64,000 nt of DNA from Clostridiaceae bacterium. Its GTDB lineage: Bacteria; Bacillota; Clostridia; TANB77; CAG-508. Made by a program: the position numbers and the translations under genes. The notes under the pieces were generated by a model. The model saw nothing but the letters and a program-made list of their open reading frames with translations, searched no databases and had not been told where the DNA came from. Positions 6,071 through 38,983 of the stretch are shown piece by piece; within the stretch, counting starts at the first letter, position 1, and each line of letters opens with the position of its first letter. The stretch is from contig JAETPW010000003.1 of NCBI GenBank assembly GCA_021771025.1, positions 72,279-136,278 on the forward strand, written 5' to 3'.

Positions 6071-8866
6071 GTGAAAAAATTAGTATTAATCGATGGAAAC
6101 AGCATCATGAACCGTGCCTTCTATGGCATCATGGGAAGTAAAATGTTAATGACAAAAGACGGAAAATACACCAATGCCGTCTATGGTTTTCTAGCCATTC
6201 TATTCAAATTAATCGAAGACGAAAACCCAGACTATATGGCAGTAGCCTTTGACCTAAAAGCACCAACAGCAAGGCACAAAATGTATGAAGGATATAAAGC
6301 AACGAGAAAAGGTATGCCAGATGAACTAGCAGAGCAAATGCCAGTGATCAAAGAAATATTAAGAGCCATGAACATAGATATCATAGAAAAAGAAGGTTAT
6401 GAAGCAGACGATGTATTAGGGACACTTTCTTGCTATGGAGAAAAACAAGGGTTAGAAGTGATCATTCTTTCCGGAGATCGTGATACCTTCCAATTAGCAA
6501 CTGATCAAGTTACCATTCGTATTCCACGCACAAAAGGAGGGAAAACAGAAACCGATTGTTTTGACCGAAATAAAATAAAGGAAACCTATGGACTAGAACC
6601 CAAACAACTCATCGAAGTAAAAGGATTACAAGGGGACAGTTCAGACAATATTCCAGGAGTACCAGGAATCGGAGAAAAAACTGCCCTTTCCCTAATCCAA
6701 AAATATGGTTCGATCCAAAACCTATATGACTTATTAGCCAAAGGAGAAGCAGAAGTAAAAGGAAAGCAAAAAGAAAATCTAGAAAATAACCAAGAATTAG
6801 CCGAACTTTCCCGAACCCTCGGAACCATCAATTTGGAAGTACCCATAGAAGATACCTTAGAACAATTCAAAGTAGAAGAATGGGACAAGCAAAAGGTATA
6901 CGAAATGTTTAAAGAATTAAATTTTAAACGCTATATCGAACGATTTCATTTAGCCGAAAATAAAGGAATAGGCCAAGAAGGAAATGAGAAAGGTGAAGAA
7001 AATAACAATAAACCAAACCAAGAAAAAGAATTATACCAAATAGAAGATAAAACACTAACTGAAATCATAAACTTAATTAAAGAACAAAAAGAAATGATCT
7101 TCTATCTATCCAGTATCCCAGAAGAAAACGCACAAAATAACCCAGCAAAAATTATTTCCGAACGAATTACTTCAATTAGTATCTACAACAATAAAGAAAA
7201 TAAAGCCTATTATCAACTATTTGTCAACGAAAAAGATATCGGAGAGTTAAAAGAAATCTTAGAAGATGCTAGCATTAGCAAAATTGGTTTCCACTTAAGT
7301 AAAACCTACATTTTATTAAAACAAGTAGGAATTACCTTGCAAGGGTTAATATTTGACGCCAAAATAGCAGGATACTTACTAGACCCAACCGTACACAAAC
7401 TAAGCCTAATAGAATTAGCTGACAGATATTTAGAAATAGAAGAGCAAAACACAAAAGAACTACAACAAGAAAGGCAAATTAACTTATTTGACCAAATGGA
7501 AGAAAAAAAGGTAGAAGAAGAAAAGCAAAAAGAGCAAAACAGTCAAGAAAATGAAAAAAATAAAGAAATTCAAGAAAACACCTACTTCTCTTACCTAATT
7601 GCCAAACTAAACCAAATACTAACCCAAGAATTAGAAGAAAGCCAAAGCTTATCCCTTTTTGAAACCATAGAAATGCCAACCGTAACGGTACTTGCTGATA
7701 TGCAATGGAACGGAATACATGCCAATCAAGAGGAATTAACGAAATTTGGTGAAGAACTAACCAAACAGCTAGAACAAAAAACAAAAATTATATACGAAAT
7801 GGCAGGAGAAGAATTCAATATCAACTCAACCAAACAACTAGGAGAAATCCTTTTTGAAAAAATGAAATTACCAGTAGGAAGAAAAACTAAAAGCGGATAT
7901 TCAACCGATGTAGACGTCTTAGAAAAATTAAAACAAGAAGATCCAATCATCCAAGAACTACTAGACTATCGCCAACTCATGAAACTAAACTCCACTTATG
8001 TAGAAGGACTAAAACCATACATCAATCCAGTCACCAAACGAATCCACTCCTTCTTCCACCAAACCATAACAGCAACAGGAAGAATCAGTTCAACCGAACC
8101 AAACCTACAAAACATCCCAACACGATTTGAACTAGGAAAACAAGTAAGAAAAATATTCGAACCAGAAGAAGGAAACATCTTCATTGACGCCGACTACTCC
8201 CAAATCGAACTACGAGTATTAGCCGATATGTCAAACGACAAACACATGATAGAAGCCTTCCAAAATAACCAAGACATCCACAAACAAGCAGCCTCCAAAG
8301 TATTCAAAACCCCAATCGACGAAGTCACCAAAGAACAAAGAAGCAACGCAAAAGCAGTCAACTTCGGAATTGTCTATGGAATCAGTGACTTTGGATTAGC
8401 TGAACAATTAGGAATACCAAGAAAACTAGCCAAAACCTATATAGAAGAATACCTAGAAGAATACGCAGGAGTCAAAGAATTCATGGAAAACATGGTAGAA
8501 CTAGCCAAAAAGCAAGGCTACGTAGAAACCCTATTTCACCGAAGAAGATATATCCCTGAACTAACCTCCAAAAACTACACCGTAAGGCAATTCGGAAGTA
8601 GAGCAGCCATGAACAGCCCCATCCAAGGAACAGCAGCCGACATCATGAAAATAGCCATGATCAATGTATTAAGCGAAATCCAAAAACAAGGGCTAAAATC
8701 AAGAATCATCTTACAAGTACACGACGAAATGATGATCGAATCACCAAAAGAAGAAGCAGAAACCATGAAAAAAATCCTAAAAGAATGTATGGAAAAAGCA
8801 GCAACCCTAAAAGTTCCATTACTCGCCGAAATCTCCGAAGCTACTAACTGGTACGATTGTAAATAA
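6071..8866 (+). CDS. polA: DNA polymerase I
   Basis: FEN-like 5' nuclease domain (GDSSDNIPGVPGIGEKTA) and family A polymerase motifs (DADYSQIELRVLA, QVHDEMMIE). GTG at 6071 preceded by aaggagg; the listed start at 6026 lies inside an intergenic repeat. Confidence 0.96.
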   Translation: MKKLVLIDGNSIMNRAFYGIMGSKMLMTKDGKYTNAVYGFLAILFKLIEDENPDYMAVAFDLKAPTARHKMYEGYKATRKGMPDELAEQMPVIKEILRAMNIDIIEKEGYEADDVLGTLSCYGEKQGLEVIILSGDRDTFQLATDQVTIRIPRTKGGKTETDCFDRNKIKETYGLEPKQLIEVKGLQGDSSDNIPGVPGIGEKTALSLIQKYGSIQNLYDLLAKGEAEVKGKQKENLENNQELAELSRTLGTINLEVPIEDTLEQFKVEEWDKQKVYEMFKELNFKRYIERFHLAENKGIGQEGNEKGEENNNKPNQEKELYQIEDKTLTEIINLIKEQKEMIFYLSSIPEENAQNNPAKIISERITSISIYNNKENKAYYQLFVNEKDIGELKEILEDASISKIGFHLSKTYILLKQVGITLQGLIFDAKIAGYLLDPTVHKLSLIELADRYLEIEEQNTKELQQERQINLFDQMEEKKVEEEKQKEQNSQENEKNKEIQENTYFSYLIAKLNQILTQELEESQSLSLFETIEMPTVTVLADMQWNGIHANQEELTKFGEELTKQLEQKTKIIYEMAGEEFNINSTKQLGEILFEKMKLPVGRKTKSGYSTDVDVLEKLKQEDPIIQELLDYRQLMKLNSTYVEGLKPYINPVTKRIHSFFHQTITATGRISSTEPNLQNIPTRFELGKQVRKIFEPEEGNIFIDADYSQIELRVLADMSNDKHMIEAFQNNQDIHKQAASKVFKTPIDEVTKEQRSNAKAVNFGIVYGISDFGLAEQLGIPRKLAKTYIEEYLEEYAGVKEFMENMVELAKKQGYVETLFHRRRYIPELTSKNYTVRQFGSRAAMNSPIQGTAADIMKIAMINVLSEIQKQGLKSRIILQVHDEMMIESPKEEAETMKKILKECMEKAATLKVPLLAEISEATNWYDCK

Positions 8867-8891
8867 GATGAAAAGTTAGCCTCAACTTAGT

Positions 8892-8947
8892 CCCAGGTTG
8901 GGGACGGGGTAAAATTTGGCAATTTTACCCAAAACAGGGACAGGGTG
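8892..8947. repeat. Intergenic repeat family B
   Basis: ggttggggacggggtaaaatttggcaattttacccaaaacagggacagggtga, closely matched at 21852-21902. Confidence 0.7.
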
Positions 8948-9117
8948 ATAATAGCAGGAAAATGATAAATAAGGAATTCTAAATGGGGAAACTTAAAATA
9001 AGGAAACCCAAAATAAGGAATACTCAAAGAAAGGAAACTTTAAATAGGGAAAACTAAAATGGGAATACTTAGAATAGAATACTTTAAATAGGGAAAATAC
9101 AGATAGGGAAATTTTAG

Positions 9118-9156
9118 ATAGGGAAGAAAAGGGCGTCCCCTTTACTTCCCTACAAA
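9118..9156. repeat. Intergenic repeat family C (inverted repeat)
   Basis: tagggaagaaaagggcgtcccctttacttcccta; related copies at 27628-27851 and 39045-39175. Confidence 0.7.
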
Positions 9157-9168
9157 GGAGAGATACTT

Positions 9169-9759
9169 TTGAGAAAAAAACAAAAAAGAAAAGGAAAAGC
9201 GTTAGTGATTTTGGTAAGTTTACTAGCTATAGTCGTGTTTTTGTTGTGTTATTTTCAAGTGCCAAATCAAATCATGAAACGAATGTATCCCAAAAAGTAC
9301 CAAGAGTTTGTTTCTTATTATGCTAATGAGTATCAAGTTGAGGAAGATTTAGTTTATGCCGTGATCAAAGCGGAAAGTAATTTTAACCCTGAGGCTCATT
9401 CTCATAAAGGAGCTAAAGGATTAATGCAACTGATGGAAGATACGGCTAAAGATGTAGCGAAAAAAACGGAACTTGCTAATTCATTAGATCAAATTACGGA
9501 AAGGTTAAGTGAGCCAGAGGTAAATATTCAATTAGGTACCAAATATCTTTCTGTTTTACTAGAACGTTATCATCATAAAGAAGTGGCACTAACCGCATAT
9601 AATGCAGGAATAGGAACGGTTGATAATTGGATTGAAAAGGGAATTATTAAAGCAGATGGAAGTGATATTGAAAATGTTCCCTATCAAGAGACAAATCAAT
9701 ACGTACGTAAAATTTTGAGGGATCACCAAATTTACCAGAAATTGTATAAAAATGATTGA
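9169..9759 (+). CDS. Membrane-anchored lytic transglycosylase (SLT domain)
   Basis: AVIKAESNFNPEAHSHKGAKGLMQLM and ALTAYNAGIGTV motifs; N-terminal TM; TTG start with RBS aaaggagagat. Confidence 0.92.
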   Translation: MRKKQKRKGKALVILVSLLAIVVFLLCYFQVPNQIMKRMYPKKYQEFVSYYANEYQVEEDLVYAVIKAESNFNPEAHSHKGAKGLMQLMEDTAKDVAKKTELANSLDQITERLSEPEVNIQLGTKYLSVLLERYHHKEVALTAYNAGIGTVDNWIEKGIIKADGSDIENVPYQETNQYVRKILRDHQIYQKLYKND

Positions 9760-9855
9760 AAGTAACATAAAAGTGTGATAAGATAACACATGATAAAGAT
9801 TCTCTAAAAAGAGAAATATACAAAAAATACCTATTCATAATTGAGGAGGAAAAAA

Positions 9856-10590
9856 ATGAAGGGAAAAGAATTAAAAGAAAATCGGAAGGATGAAATAAGC
9901 GGAGTAATACTCGAAAAAGGAACTCTGCAAGAAAGAAGTTCACCGACAGCATTTTTTTATTTTGATGAGATAAAACTGCAAGAGAACAGTAAAATAAAAA
10001 ATGAAGAATGGAAAGAAATAAGTACGAACACGATCAAACAAACTATTTTCCTTATGAACCAGAACGAGGAAGAAGAATTTTTTGTCATCCATATTTATTA
10101 TGAATTGCAAGAATTTAAGGAAATAACCAAGGACTATACAATAGCTTCCCAAAAGAGATACGCAAAGCAAATAGATATTTTAGTGATAGGAAGTGAAGAG
10201 TCAATTTCCACGACAAGAAGATATAAACAAGAAGATTACAAAAGGGAATTGATAGAAGTGGATTTAATTCAAAAGGCAAAAACTGAAAGAGAAAAAGAAA
10301 ACCGTCGAGAGCAAAAAAAGTTTTCGAGAGAATGGGGAATTTTCGGGAATTGGATGCCAAAAGAATTACTTAAGCTAAATAGTAAGGAAAGTACCTTTAA
10401 AATGGGTGAGGCGGATCTATCTGTTACGGCTAGGAGTAAGTTAATCAGCCGGAAAAAAGTAGTTAAATACTCGGTAAAAGGAATAGATATTACTATTTAT
10501 CTACCAGTTAAGTTATACGAAATAGAAGTAAATCTATTTCGTCATCAAAAAGAAATAATGATGACAAAAAAGTATATCTTAATTCTTTAA
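9856..10590 (+). CDS. Hypothetical protein
   Basis: ATG at 9856 with RBS gaggaggaaaaaa; no motif recognised. Confidence 0.65.
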   Translation: MKGKELKENRKDEISGVILEKGTLQERSSPTAFFYFDEIKLQENSKIKNEEWKEISTNTIKQTIFLMNQNEEEEFFVIHIYYELQEFKEITKDYTIASQKRYAKQIDILVIGSEESISTTRRYKQEDYKRELIEVDLIQKAKTEREKENRREQKKFSREWGIFGNWMPKELLKLNSKESTFKMGEADLSVTARSKLISRKKVVKYSVKGIDITIYLPVKLYEIEVNLFRHQKEIMMTKKYILIL

Positions 10591-12138: not shown

Positions 12139-13029
12139 ATGAGTGAAAAGAAATCATTTGCTGTAATTGGCGGAGATTTAAGGATGATAAAATTGACTAA
12201 AATGCTTGCCAAAGAGGGTAATTTAGTATATACTTATGGTCTAGAAAAAGCAGAAGAATTAAAAGGAGTAGACAACATTATTTTCTGCGACAAATTAACA
12301 GAAGCCATTAAACCAGTAGAAGTAGTCATTGGACCAATACCTTTTTCTAGTAATGGAAAAGAAATCAATACACCATTTAGTGACCAAAAAATTTCTATTC
12401 GTGAACTTATGCACATCTTAAATGCCAAAATTTTAATTGCCGGAACAATTACACCAGAAGTGTATGACTTAGCCAATGATGAATATATCGAAATAATAGA
12501 CATCATGAAACGTGAGGAATTAGCCGTCTTAAATACCATTTCTACAGCAGAAGGAGCTATCGAAATTGCCATCAGTAATACCAACAAAATCATTCATGGA
12601 AGCAAAGTTTTAGTATTAGGATTTGGAAGAATTGGGAAAGTATTAGCCAGAAAATTAGCAGGGCTTTCAGCAATAGTAACTTGTGCTGCCAGAAAAGATG
12701 AGGATATTGCATGGATTAAAGCCTATGGGCATAAATCCACAAACATCAATACCTTAGGAGAGAATCTTGCTGATTTTGATATTATCATCAATACAGTTCC
12801 TCATATGATTTTAAATGAAGAACGATTAACCTATGTAAAACCAGAATGTTTACTCATTGACCTTGCTTCTAATCCCGGAGGAATTGATAAAAAAGTGGCC
12901 AAAGAAAAAGAACTAAAATTAATATGGGCACTAGCTCTGCCAGGAAAAGTAGCTCCTATTACGACAGCAGAATTTATTAAAGACACCATTTATAATATCA
13001 TGAAAGAAATCTATAAAGAAAGTCGTTAG
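12139..13029 (+). CDS. dpaA: Dipicolinate synthase subunit A
   Basis: FAVIGGDLRMIKLTKMLAKEG N-terminus and GFGRIGKVLARKL Rossmann motif; length matches DpaA/SpoVFA. Confidence 0.88.
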   Translation: MSEKKSFAVIGGDLRMIKLTKMLAKEGNLVYTYGLEKAEELKGVDNIIFCDKLTEAIKPVEVVIGPIPFSSNGKEINTPFSDQKISIRELMHILNAKILIAGTITPEVYDLANDEYIEIIDIMKREELAVLNTISTAEGAIEIAISNTNKIIHGSKVLVLGFGRIGKVLARKLAGLSAIVTCAARKDEDIAWIKAYGHKSTNINTLGENLADFDIIINTVPHMILNEERLTYVKPECLLIDLASNPGGIDKKVAKEKELKLIWALALPGKVAPITTAEFIKDTIYNIMKEIYKESR

Positions 13030-13162
13030 AGAGTTAAAAAATGATTGCTAAGTTTTTGCTTTATTCTACTGATAAGAAAAGGAAAAATATTACTAGCGAT
13101 AAAAATTAAAAAAAGTTATTAAGTTGAAACAAATAAATCTAACCAAAGAAAGGAAGAAAAAA

Positions 13163-13954
13163 ATGAACGAATTAATTCAAGCACTTATTTTAGGAATTGT
13201 CCAAGGGTTAACGGAATTATTACCAATTTCAAGCTCAGCACATTTAAACTTAATCCCTTGGGCATTCAATTGGGAAATGCCAGCAAGTTTTGATGTCGCT
13301 TTACACTTTGGTACATTACTTGCCATCGCCCTATTCTTTTTCAAAGACTGGATTGCTCTAATTAAAGGAGGATATAATCAAGTCGTTAAAAAAGAAAAAT
13401 CCACAGAAGGAAGAATGTTTTGGTACATTGTGATTGCTACCATACCAGGAGGAGCAATAGGATTTTTATTAGATCACTTTGTGGGAGACAGCTTAGGAAA
13501 AATGCCATTACTCATTGCCACTGCCTTAATTGTAATGGGAATTATATTATACATAGCCGACAAAAAAGCACCATCCAAAACCAAATATAAAGACATGACA
13601 TTTAAACAAACTTTTTTAATTGGATTATCCCAAGCACTAGCCTTCATTCCCGGAGTATCCAGATCAGGAGTAACCATGACAGCAGGAAGAATTATGGGAG
13701 TAGAACGAGAATCCACTGCCAAATACTCATTTATGTTATCAGCACCAATTGTGTTAGGAGCAACTCTTTACAAATTCAAAGACTTTGTTTTTGGAATGCC
13801 ATTTGTAGTAGGAGTGTTAGCTAGTTTCTTAGTAGGGTTAGCTGTTATTAAATTTTTATTACAATATTTGCAAAAAGGAAGCTTTAAAATTTTTGCTATT
13901 TACCGAGTAATTTTGGGAATTGCGATCATAGGCTTATATCTAACAAGAATATAA
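13163..13954 (+). CDS. uppP: Undecaprenyl-diphosphatase UppP/BacA
   Basis: GIVQGLTELLPISSSAHL and PGVSRSGVTM motifs; ATG at 13163 with RBS aaaggaag. Confidence 0.95.
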   Translation: MNELIQALILGIVQGLTELLPISSSAHLNLIPWAFNWEMPASFDVALHFGTLLAIALFFFKDWIALIKGGYNQVVKKEKSTEGRMFWYIVIATIPGGAIGFLLDHFVGDSLGKMPLLIATALIVMGIILYIADKKAPSKTKYKDMTFKQTFLIGLSQALAFIPGVSRSGVTMTAGRIMGVERESTAKYSFMLSAPIVLGATLYKFKDFVFGMPFVVGVLASFLVGLAVIKFLLQYLQKGSFKIFAIYRVILGIAIIGLYLTRI

Positions 13955-13959
13955 TGTCT

Positions 13960-14130
13960 AATGGGGGACGTTTCTGTTTTGTCCAATTGGGGACGTTTCT
14001 GTTTTGGACATTTTGATTTTGTCCAAAGGGGGATGTCTCTTTTTGAGATATTTTTCTCTTTGTCCAATTGGGGATGTTTCCTTTTTTGGACTTTTTTGCT
14101 TTTTATCCAATAGAACACGTTTCTATTTGA
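13960..14130. repeat. Intergenic repeat family A, about five degenerate tandem units
   Basis: Repeated gtccaattggggacgtttctgttttggac-like units. Confidence 0.8.
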
Positions 14131-14218
14131 CTGTTTTTCCTTTAATTGAATCTTCTTTATTAGTTAGTAAGATATTTTTATAGGTGTACCTAATTTTGTG
14201 CTATAGGATAATGGTTTT

Positions 14219-14426
14219 GAGGAATTAGTCCGCTTTGAACTCAAGTCATCTGTGGTACTTTTTAGATAAATTTAGTCTTCCATAGCTGGGTCTTTTTAAA
14301 ACCCTTAGGTCCCTCACAAGAAGCCTGTTATCGGGTTTTAAGCCTAACGCGGGTCTTGGGGAACTGTCAGACGTAAATTTATCTAAAAAGTACTACAGAT
14401 GACTTGAGTTCAAAGCTATTTTAGTG
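14219..14426. repeat. Large foldback (MITE-like) element, copy 1
   Basis: 43-nt arms at 14232-14274 and 14374-14416 with one mismatch; inner 28-nt loop ttaggtccctcacaagaagcctgttatc at 14305-14332. Confidence 0.75.
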
Positions 14427-35148: not shown

Positions 35149-36783
<1,635 letters not shown>

Positions 36784-36793
36784 TAAAAGGAGA

Positions 36794-36831
36794 AGAAGGT
36801 ATTCAAAAGAGATTGAGTACCTTCTTTTTTT
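36794..36831 (+). terminator. groESL terminator
   Basis: agaaggta ... taccttcttttttt. Confidence 0.8.
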
Positions 36832-37138
36832 GAGTCAGTAAGTTATCATAAACTTGACTAAACAACAATACAAGATAAAAAAAAGAAGGATTAATCATTC
36901 TAATAGGAATTAATTTACAAAAATCAAAATGAAAACCACAAATCTCGGAAAACTAGGTATGGAAAAGAAAAAGAAGGAATGATATATTGACAAAGAAAAG
37001 TATAATACTAAAAAAACAATAATATCCATATTAAAAAAAGAGAAATCAAACTATTGCTAGAAAAATAATGAATAAAACAAGCCAAAAGGAACAAAATATA
37101 AGAAAAATGGAAAAAAGCAAAAGAGGAGGATAATTATA

Positions 37139-38512
37139 GTGAACGGTACAAAAAATGAAGCAAAAATGAAAAAGATAAAAGAATATAAAATGGATAGAGG
37201 TATTACACTAATTGCCCTAGTAATCTCCATTATTGTTTTATTAATTCTAGCAGGGGTAACAATAGCAGCATTAACAGGGCAAAATGGAATACTAAGCAAC
37301 GCTACAAAATCAAAAGAAGCAAACGAAAAAGGAAACGAACTAGACCTAGTAAAATTAGCCACATCAGCTTCACTAATTGATAGTCAAGGGCAAGCCATAT
37401 CGTTAGCCGATTTACAAAACAACTTAAGCAAACAAAACAGTAATGCCATAGCAAGCCAAGAGGGAGAAGGATTTATCGTAAAATTTAATGACTCAGGAAG
37501 AGAATATAAAGTAGACAAATATGGAAACGTACAAGAAACAGCAGGAGGATCAGGAAATTTACCATCAACTCTTGATACAACACCATTCTTACCAGACGGA
37601 TTCACCCAAAAAGAAGGAACGAATCTAGACAATGGACTAACCATAACCGACGGAACCAATAGTTATGTATGGGTAGAAGTACCAAAAAGTATTTATACCA
37701 CAGCAACATCAGAAACAGACTATACCAATATAGAAGTCGATATGAAAACATATACTGCAGATTATAAAAGTGATACGTATAAAGACGAATATTATTCAGA
37801 TGAAACAACAGGGCTAACACAAGCAGAATATAACAGTTTAAAACAATCCATGTTAACTAGTGTATATAAGAATGGAGGATTTTGGATCAGTCAATATGAA
37901 ATAGGAACAGACATACTAAGGACAAGTAGTTCAGCACCATTAACAACTCCAAAAAGTCAAGAGGGATTATACCCCTATAACTATGTAACCTGTACGCAAG
38001 CACAAGAATTAGCAGAGCAAATGAATCCCAATAGTAGTAAATACAAAAGTAGTTTATTGTTTGGAGTACAATGGGATTTAACTTGTAAGTTCTTAGAAAC
38101 GAAAGCAACGAATTTAGGGGAAACGCAAGATGTAAGAAAAAATGTTATAAAAAGTGATAGTACAACATGGGGAAACTACTATAAAGCAACATTTGAAATA
38201 ACCAAGGGAAAATACTCAAGCAATAGTGGTAGTAGTTATACAGATGTAAATGGAACTTATACAAAACCGAATTCAAGTGTATTATTAACAACAGGAGCAA
38301 CAGAAAGAAACAGTAGCATGAATATCTATGATTTCGCTGGAAATGAATGGGAATGGACTTTAGAATATTATACCAGCAACATCAACTATCCTTGCATTAA
38401 TCGAGGTGGCTATTTCTTCAGCAGTGGAACCGTCTTTCCGGCCAGCAGTCGTAACAACAATTCGGATCCTTATAGTAGCGGCGACATTACGTTGCGTACG
38501 GCTTTATATTAG
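37139..38512 (+). CDS. Prepilin-like protein with C-terminal FGE/C-type-lectin-like domain; candidate DGR target
   Basis: RGITLIALVISIIVLLILAGVTIAAL class III-like prepilin N-terminus; FAGNEWEWTLEYY...CINRGGYFFSSG...LRTALY C-terminus; GTG start with RBS agaggaggata. Confidence 0.8.
   Translation: MNGTKNEAKMKKIKEYKMDRGITLIALVISIIVLLILAGVTIAALTGQNGILSNATKSKEANEKGNELDLVKLATSASLIDSQGQAISLADLQNNLSKQNSNAIASQEGEGFIVKFNDSGREYKVDKYGNVQETAGGSGNLPSTLDTTPFLPDGFTQKEGTNLDNGLTITDGTNSYVWVEVPKSIYTTATSETDYTNIEVDMKTYTADYKSDTYKDEYYSDETTGLTQAEYNSLKQSMLTSVYKNGGFWISQYEIGTDILRTSSSAPLTTPKSQEGLYPYNYVTCTQAQELAEQMNPNSSKYKSSLLFGVQWDLTCKFLETKATNLGETQDVRKNVIKSDSTTWGNYYKATFEITKGKYSSNSGSSYTDVNGTYTKPNSSVLLTTGATERNSSMNIYDFAGNEWEWTLEYYTSNINYPCINRGGYFFSSGTVFPASSRNNNSDPYSSGDITLRTALY
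38385..38512 (+). other. Candidate DGR variable region (VR)
   Basis: 3' terminal coding segment with marked codon/GC shift and many NNC codons (TTC TTC AGC ACC GTC GCC AGC AAC AAC AGC GGC GAC), ending ATTACGTTGCGTACGGCTTTATATTAG. Confidence 0.6.
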
Positions 38513-38535
38513 TAAAAATGAGGAGTGTTAAATAT

Positions 38536-38587
38536 AACTGTGCAAATTCAAAATTTAATTTTTGAATTTATACAGTTAATTTTTTTG
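38536..38587 (+). terminator. Rho-independent terminator hairpin downstream of candidate VR
   Basis: actgt gc aaattcaaa atttaatt tttgaattt at acagt followed by a T-run. Confidence 0.75.
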
Positions 38588-38734
38588 ATGGGAAGTAGAG
38601 AAATAAAGAAAGTAAATAGTAACTGTCGCCACAATATTCGAAAAATTCCTCCCAAAAACAATTGCAATTTCCCAAAAACTATGATAGAATAACCAAGAAA
38701 TAAAAAAAGACAAACCATAGGGAGGAATACACAA

Positions 38735-38983
38735 ATGGAAATCGCAAAAACAGTATTAGCCATTATCTACTTCATCAACATTATAGCCATAGTAATACTA
38801 GCTCTTATCCAAACCAAGGAAGACTCAGGGCTATCATCAACCTTAACCGGTTCCTCAACCGACAATTTTTATGAAAAAAATAAAGGAAGAACCAAAGAAG
38901 GAAAACAAAAAAGATGGACGATCATATTATCCATAACCTTTGCAATCTTAACCATAGCACTAGGAATCTTATGGATGGCATAG
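38735..38983 (+). CDS. secG: Preprotein translocase subunit SecG
   Basis: Two TMs with QTKEDSGLSSTLTGSS loop; upstream of rnr. Confidence 0.9.
   Translation: MEIAKTVLAIIYFINIIAIVILALIQTKEDSGLSSTLTGSSTDNFYEKNKGRTKEGKQKRWTIILSITFAILTIALGILWMA

Follow-up and report, generated by a model that had tools for sequence, protein, structure and literature searches.

A probable remote diversity-generating retroelement target of a prepilin-like family in a Clostridiaceae genome, its cognate core apparently lost or unassembled

How does a gene that ends like the target of a diversity-generating retroelement (DGR) come to stand with no retroelement beside it? DGRs act by mutagenic reverse transcription of a template repeat (TR), followed by replacement of the variable region (VR) of a target gene. 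The gene in question lies in a 64,000-nucleotide stretch of a Clostridiaceae bacterium (the window; GenBank GCA_021771025.1, contig JAETPW010000003.1), whose 2.04-Mb assembly comprises 75 contigs and is 97.45% complete. An initial annotation, made from the letters alone, had read an open reading frame with a prepilin-like head and an FGE-like end, and had seen no retroelement core in the window. Both ends are indeed present, and the window proved free of a DGR core for this gene, with no cassette adjoining it. The gene is very probably a remote DGR target whose core has been lost or was not assembled, and the computations that support this are the fold of its product, A-specific TR-to-VR differences in sister genomes, the presence in one of these of many VRs for one TR, and the pattern of variation among three paralogs. 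The features on which the argument turns are as follows.

37139..38512, + strand: target gene, an open reading frame of 457 amino acids with a prepilin-like head and an FGE/C-type-lectin (CLec) domain.
37586..38509, + strand: FGE-type C-type-lectin domain, residues 150-457, from the AlphaFold2 model, Foldseek and profile matches.
38390..38509, + strand: VR, placed by the codon-position shift, the A columns of sister templates and the end of homology to the paralog on contig C42.
38495..38509, + strand: largely conserved 3' end of the VR, CGT ACG GCT TTA TAT, from the alignment of three paralogs.

The C-type-lectin ending bears out the initial annotation. An AlphaFold2 model of residues 150-457, for which 43 relatives were used, reaches a pLDDT of 96.4 and a pTM of 0.94, and its best match in a Foldseek search of the PDB is the DGR variable protein TaqVP (5vf4, E 1.1e-5). 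TvpA of Treponema denticola (2y3c) ranks fifth, with CarF, PvdO and human FGE nearby, and Mtd (1yu3) appears only at rank 50. The TM-scores are modest (about 0.3-0.46), such that the CLec fold class appears clear from the model without a close relationship to the matched structures being implied. The FGE-sulfatase profile is sub-threshold on the target protein alone (E=0.006), and at E<=0.01 it picks up 27 of the 44 domains of the family; SUMF2 was also found by profile, with the VR aligned to its last strands. The likeness to FGE is one of fold and weak profile similarity. Taken as a whole, the product is very probably a pseudopilin-like protein that is secreted and anchored to the membrane or a filament, with the FGE-type CLec domain of a DGR variable protein at its C terminus.

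Matches to the protein at E<=1e-20 occur in 72 of 98 genomes of the same genus, part of them resting on the prepilin head alone, and some genomes hold 10 to 17 copies. In four sister genomes the homologs are A-specifically mutated DGR targets. The cassette of G119 runs in the order homolog (with prepilin head and FGE end), bAvd, reverse transcriptase (RT), TR, and all 20 of its 20 TR/VR differences fall at template A; for the VR nearest the cassette of G238 the count is 23 of 23. The corresponding differences number 25 at A and 3 elsewhere in G202, and 13 and 2 in G133, all counts being strand-corrected for minus-strand cassettes. A different DGR occurs in the sister genome G191 (C27, 4308-8192), with an RT and an open reading frame in the Avd position; 21 of its 22 template differences lie at A, and its target is non-FGE-looking and ends in SLKSTVKVDL.

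G238, a rabbit-gut metagenome-assembled genome (MAG; Lapin-028 bin95), is apparently the same genome as G146, which is placed in the same genus. It carries RT, bAvd and TR on contig C4, and a DNA search with one VR returned the template and 24 VR-like places genome-wide, the query included. Eleven are strict VRs, in which 3 or fewer of ~73 non-A sites are changed, and 12-20 of ~42 A sites; about ten looser ones have 4-9 non-A changes, and the remaining places are too diverged to assign. Over 13 ungapped VRs, template A is changed at 212 of 507 positions and non-A at 34 of 819 (Fisher p=7e-67). Most of these VRs have a prepilin-like head within 1.5 kb upstream. Dispersed strict and looser VRs behind such heads would most simply be accounted for, on sequence grounds, by one cassette serving many remote targets of the window gene's family. 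One further VR-bearing frame of G238 stops early inside its VR. In G202, two paralogs fit the single template (25 A and 3 non-A differences; 28 and 5); the idea that this template wrote all paralogs of that genome was rejected, as those beyond the two do not fit.

The VR of the window gene departs from its surroundings. The rise in GC content over the last ~40 codons, noticed in the initial annotation, is real: GC is 0.486 in the VR and 0.34 upstream in the same gene, and 0.53 versus 0.23 at third codon positions. Further upstream in the gene, GC stays at or below 0.419 in every 105-nt stretch, and the VR stands at the 99.95th percentile of all 105-nt stretches of the window, so that the shift is not due to chance. 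The best placement of the VR, 38390-38509, is slightly inside the 38385-38512 first proposed.

The source genome holds two paralogs of the target gene. The copy on C42 has an open frame and a protein 79% identical, with homology starting ~230 nt upstream of the start codon and ending at the end of the VR. The other is disrupted, its VR still recognisable:

C31:160001-180000, 12966-14340: third copy, its frame interrupted by a frameshift, a TAG and two TAA codons.

Between the window gene and the C42 copy, VR differences number 30 at the first two codon positions and 8 at the third, against 80 and 100 outside the VR (p=1.3e-4); the C31 copy shows the same tendency (p=0.004). A total of 102 nt of the VR aligns ungapped with the templates and VRs of sister species. 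At A columns of the G202 template, 28 three-paralog columns are variable and 10 constant, versus 18 and 46 at the other columns (p=1.1e-5), with p=0.004 for the G238 template and p=4e-4 for that of G119; none of these p-values is corrected for selection on an exposed surface. All three paralogs share CGT-NNG-GCTTTATAT at the 3' end of the VR, and 38495-38509 is where an invariant 3' segment or initiation of mutagenic homology (IMH) would lie, a role that these positions may serve.

Remote diversification presupposes a DGR somewhere in the genome, and DGR RTs with A-biased TR/VR pairs are present elsewhere in this one. Two complete systems (RT, Avd, TR) were found, both serving other targets:

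C48:22000-38000, 7812-10305, - strand: first DGR, with an FGE-domain target, bAvd, RT and a TR just downstream of the RT.
C56:50000-59520, 7093-9521: second DGR, with bAvd, RT, TR and a VR gene running off the contig.

The DGR-type RT motif was taken as [IVL]GxxxSQ; all DGR RTs checked carry [IL]GNxxSQ, and the two resident ones have LGNYTSQ or IGNYTSQ (LGNYTSQ and YMDD in the RT of C48). Over 63 nt, the C48 template differs from its own target at 0/43 non-A and 6/20 A positions. The C56 TR/VR pair has mismatches at 10/32 A and 0/91 non-A positions. A VR on C40 (segment 9096-9216) differs from the C56 template at 15/31 A and 2/90 non-A positions, and the C56 DGR may, to judge from this, act in trans on it.

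Either resident system could be imagined to write the VR of the window gene, since both are intact with A-specific template/variable pairs, and C48 targets another FGE-domain protein with an RT 53-57% identical to those of the window family's cassettes. This is contradicted by the templates themselves and can hardly be credited: the C48 template (TR1) has 16/43 non-A mismatches to the window VR over the first 63 nt, where its own target has none, and the C56 template (TR2) has no match to the target gene. Both were rejected as parents of the VR. The RTs of G119, G202 and G238 share 75-78% identity among themselves, and that of C56 only 42-47% with them. The resident RTs thus fall outside the group that targets the window gene's family, and neither belongs to a cognate core.

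Several observations weigh against the reading of the gene as a remote DGR target. The initial annotation looked to a near-identical TR, with mismatches to the VR confined to A, elsewhere in the genome; none was found in the 2.04-Mb assembly by DNA similarity or by two A-tolerant patterns with at most 3 mismatches. The searches returned just the three VRs and unrelated weak matches, one of which, on C40, is a VR of the C56 template. The assembly has no bAvd gene or DGR-type RT beyond the two of each that belong to the other cassettes. Among the three paralogs, 11 variable columns hold no A (control triples average 7.8 over 102 columns), and ordinary drift has therefore contributed. Selection, too, causes variation in CLec loops and at surface Asn/Ser codons, so the paralog test is by itself no proof. 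With no DGR involved, the tail could have varied among paralogs as an exposed ligand-binding loop under ordinary positive selection, or by recombination, as might be argued from the natural variability of CLec loops, the missing template, the variation of non-A columns and the similar end of a relative that is more distant and lies on C3 of the source genome. We consider this quite improbable, given that at least four sister genomes have homologs inside DGR cassettes, the differences being confined to A, and given the shifts in composition and codon position and the match to template A columns in the window gene itself.

A DNA search for the same template in 145 family and 211 genus genomes gave short partial matches only, and a pattern search of viral contigs and a protein search of phage records gave nothing. 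With no template, only two bAvd genes and distant RTs, the cognate core was therefore either lost or not assembled, and we infer that the target is an orphan in the source strain. Of the remote diversification first proposed, membership in a DGR-target family stands; present diversification in trans cannot be claimed, since no cognate TR was found in the assembly. It is conceivable, if on balance unlikely, that the gene is still diversified in trans by an RT, bAvd and TR that are missing from the draft MAG or reside in other strains. The assembly is fragmented and short of complete, the window gene and the C42 copy keep intact frames, one template reaches many targets in G238, and the resident C56 cassette itself runs off a contig end. 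Speaking against continued activity are the lack of any template, orphan Avd or third DGR RT in the assembly and the decay of the third paralog.

Under the preferred reading of a remote target without its core, a DGR RT with bAvd would copy the TR RNA, misreading adenines, and the cDNA would take the place of the homologous ~120 nt at the end of target genes, far-off ones included. The VR of the window gene would last have been written by a cassette of the G202/G238/G119 type that is now absent from the source strain, and the protein would bind variable ligands at the surface.

The N-terminal half bears on how such a surface might be anchored.

37199..37276, + strand: prepilin-like N-terminal helix, G|ITLIALVISIIVLLILAGVTIAAL, residues 21-46, lacking Glu5, from Pfam N_methyl and the full-length model.
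37391..37543, + strand: helix and small beta-sheet of pilin-like topology, residues 85-135, following the long helix in the full-length model.

The head reads DRG-ITLIALVISIIVLLILAGVTIAAL, a prepilin-like motif in which the usual Glu5 is replaced by Ala. The class III signal (G|ITLIALV...) is present in this altered form, and Pfam N_methyl stays below the cut-off on the target protein (E=0.012), doing better in homologs (E<0.01 in 5 of 19 full-length family members); the geopilin N terminus is a weak profile match (E=0.039). The helix appears in the full-length model, which is of moderate confidence; residues 85-135 have a pLDDT mostly of ~77-83, with the final residues below 50, and a fold search with this full-length chain gave no match. 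The helix claimed in the initial annotation thus holds as a prepilin-like motif and helix, lacking Glu5 and sub-threshold for N_methyl. Display on a pilus may be supposed from the N-terminal motif, together with the gene for a prepilin peptidase on contig C42 of the source genome. The head would anchor the protein, placing the CLec domain outside the cell and leaving the variable surface to bind ligands.

DGRs, remote targets, the CLec fold and the mechanism are already known. In T. denticola, one TR serves up to seven target genes, several of them remote, and some isolates keep target genes without RT and TR (PMC4891356). Its TvpA family thus resembles the present one in having FGE-type CLec targets, remote targets and orphan targets; it differs in that several targets are predicted lipoproteins (PMC4891356), where here the anchor is a prepilin-like helix, and in number, a single TR of G238 being matched by 11 strict and ~10 looser VRs. 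Thiohalocapsa PB-PSB1 has 15 targets with 21 VRs and nine DGR loci, the targets being sensors of conflict systems (PMC10907252). They too carry CLec domains and lie far from RT and TR, an arrangement best explained by diversification in trans (PMC10907252), whereas here one cassette matches one family of pseudopilin-like proteins. TaqVP, TvpA and Mtd share the fold class of the variable domain, at ~12-15% sequence identity and modest TM-scores, and have no prepilin-like head in the comparison. The cassettes of G119 and C48 follow the order target, bAvd, RT, TR of bAvd-type DGRs (Pfam bAvd, NCBIfam DivGenRetAVD), unlike the window target, which has no adjoining cassette.

Earlier work mentions DGR targets whose structures are putatively those of pilins (PMC6642488). 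For a large metagenomic survey, by its own account, targets far from the RT were out of reach (PMC8144416); it required the VR to lie beside the RT and was therefore unable to detect an arrangement of the present kind (PMC8144416). Set against the open-licence literature, a prepilin-like/FGE family with a single template and at least 11 dispersed sites in one genome would be a notable variant.

We regard it as an even call whether this genus of gut Clostridia maintains a dispersed arsenal of pseudopilin-anchored CLec proteins that one RT rewrites in trans from one template (in one genome, with 11 to ~21 VRs for that template), and whether in some species, such as the source, target genes persist after the cassette has gone, as a frozen repertoire able to diversify again if a cassette were regained. 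The case shows that a genome may hold many DGR targets far from the RT and that these can come from a single surface-anchored family; targets lacking a core can be recognised from their composition, from a bias in codon position and from homology to the templates of sister species. With this family it could be tested how a single template is shared among many targets, and what becomes of targets after cassette loss.

The immediate surroundings of the gene add one short element:

37124..37129, + strand: Shine-Dalgarno-like AGGAGG ahead of the GTG start, read in the sequence; the element also precedes the C42 paralog.

The gene stands by itself, flanked by groES-groEL and a small secG-like gene (36783-38735), in a neighbourhood that otherwise consists of housekeeping genes.
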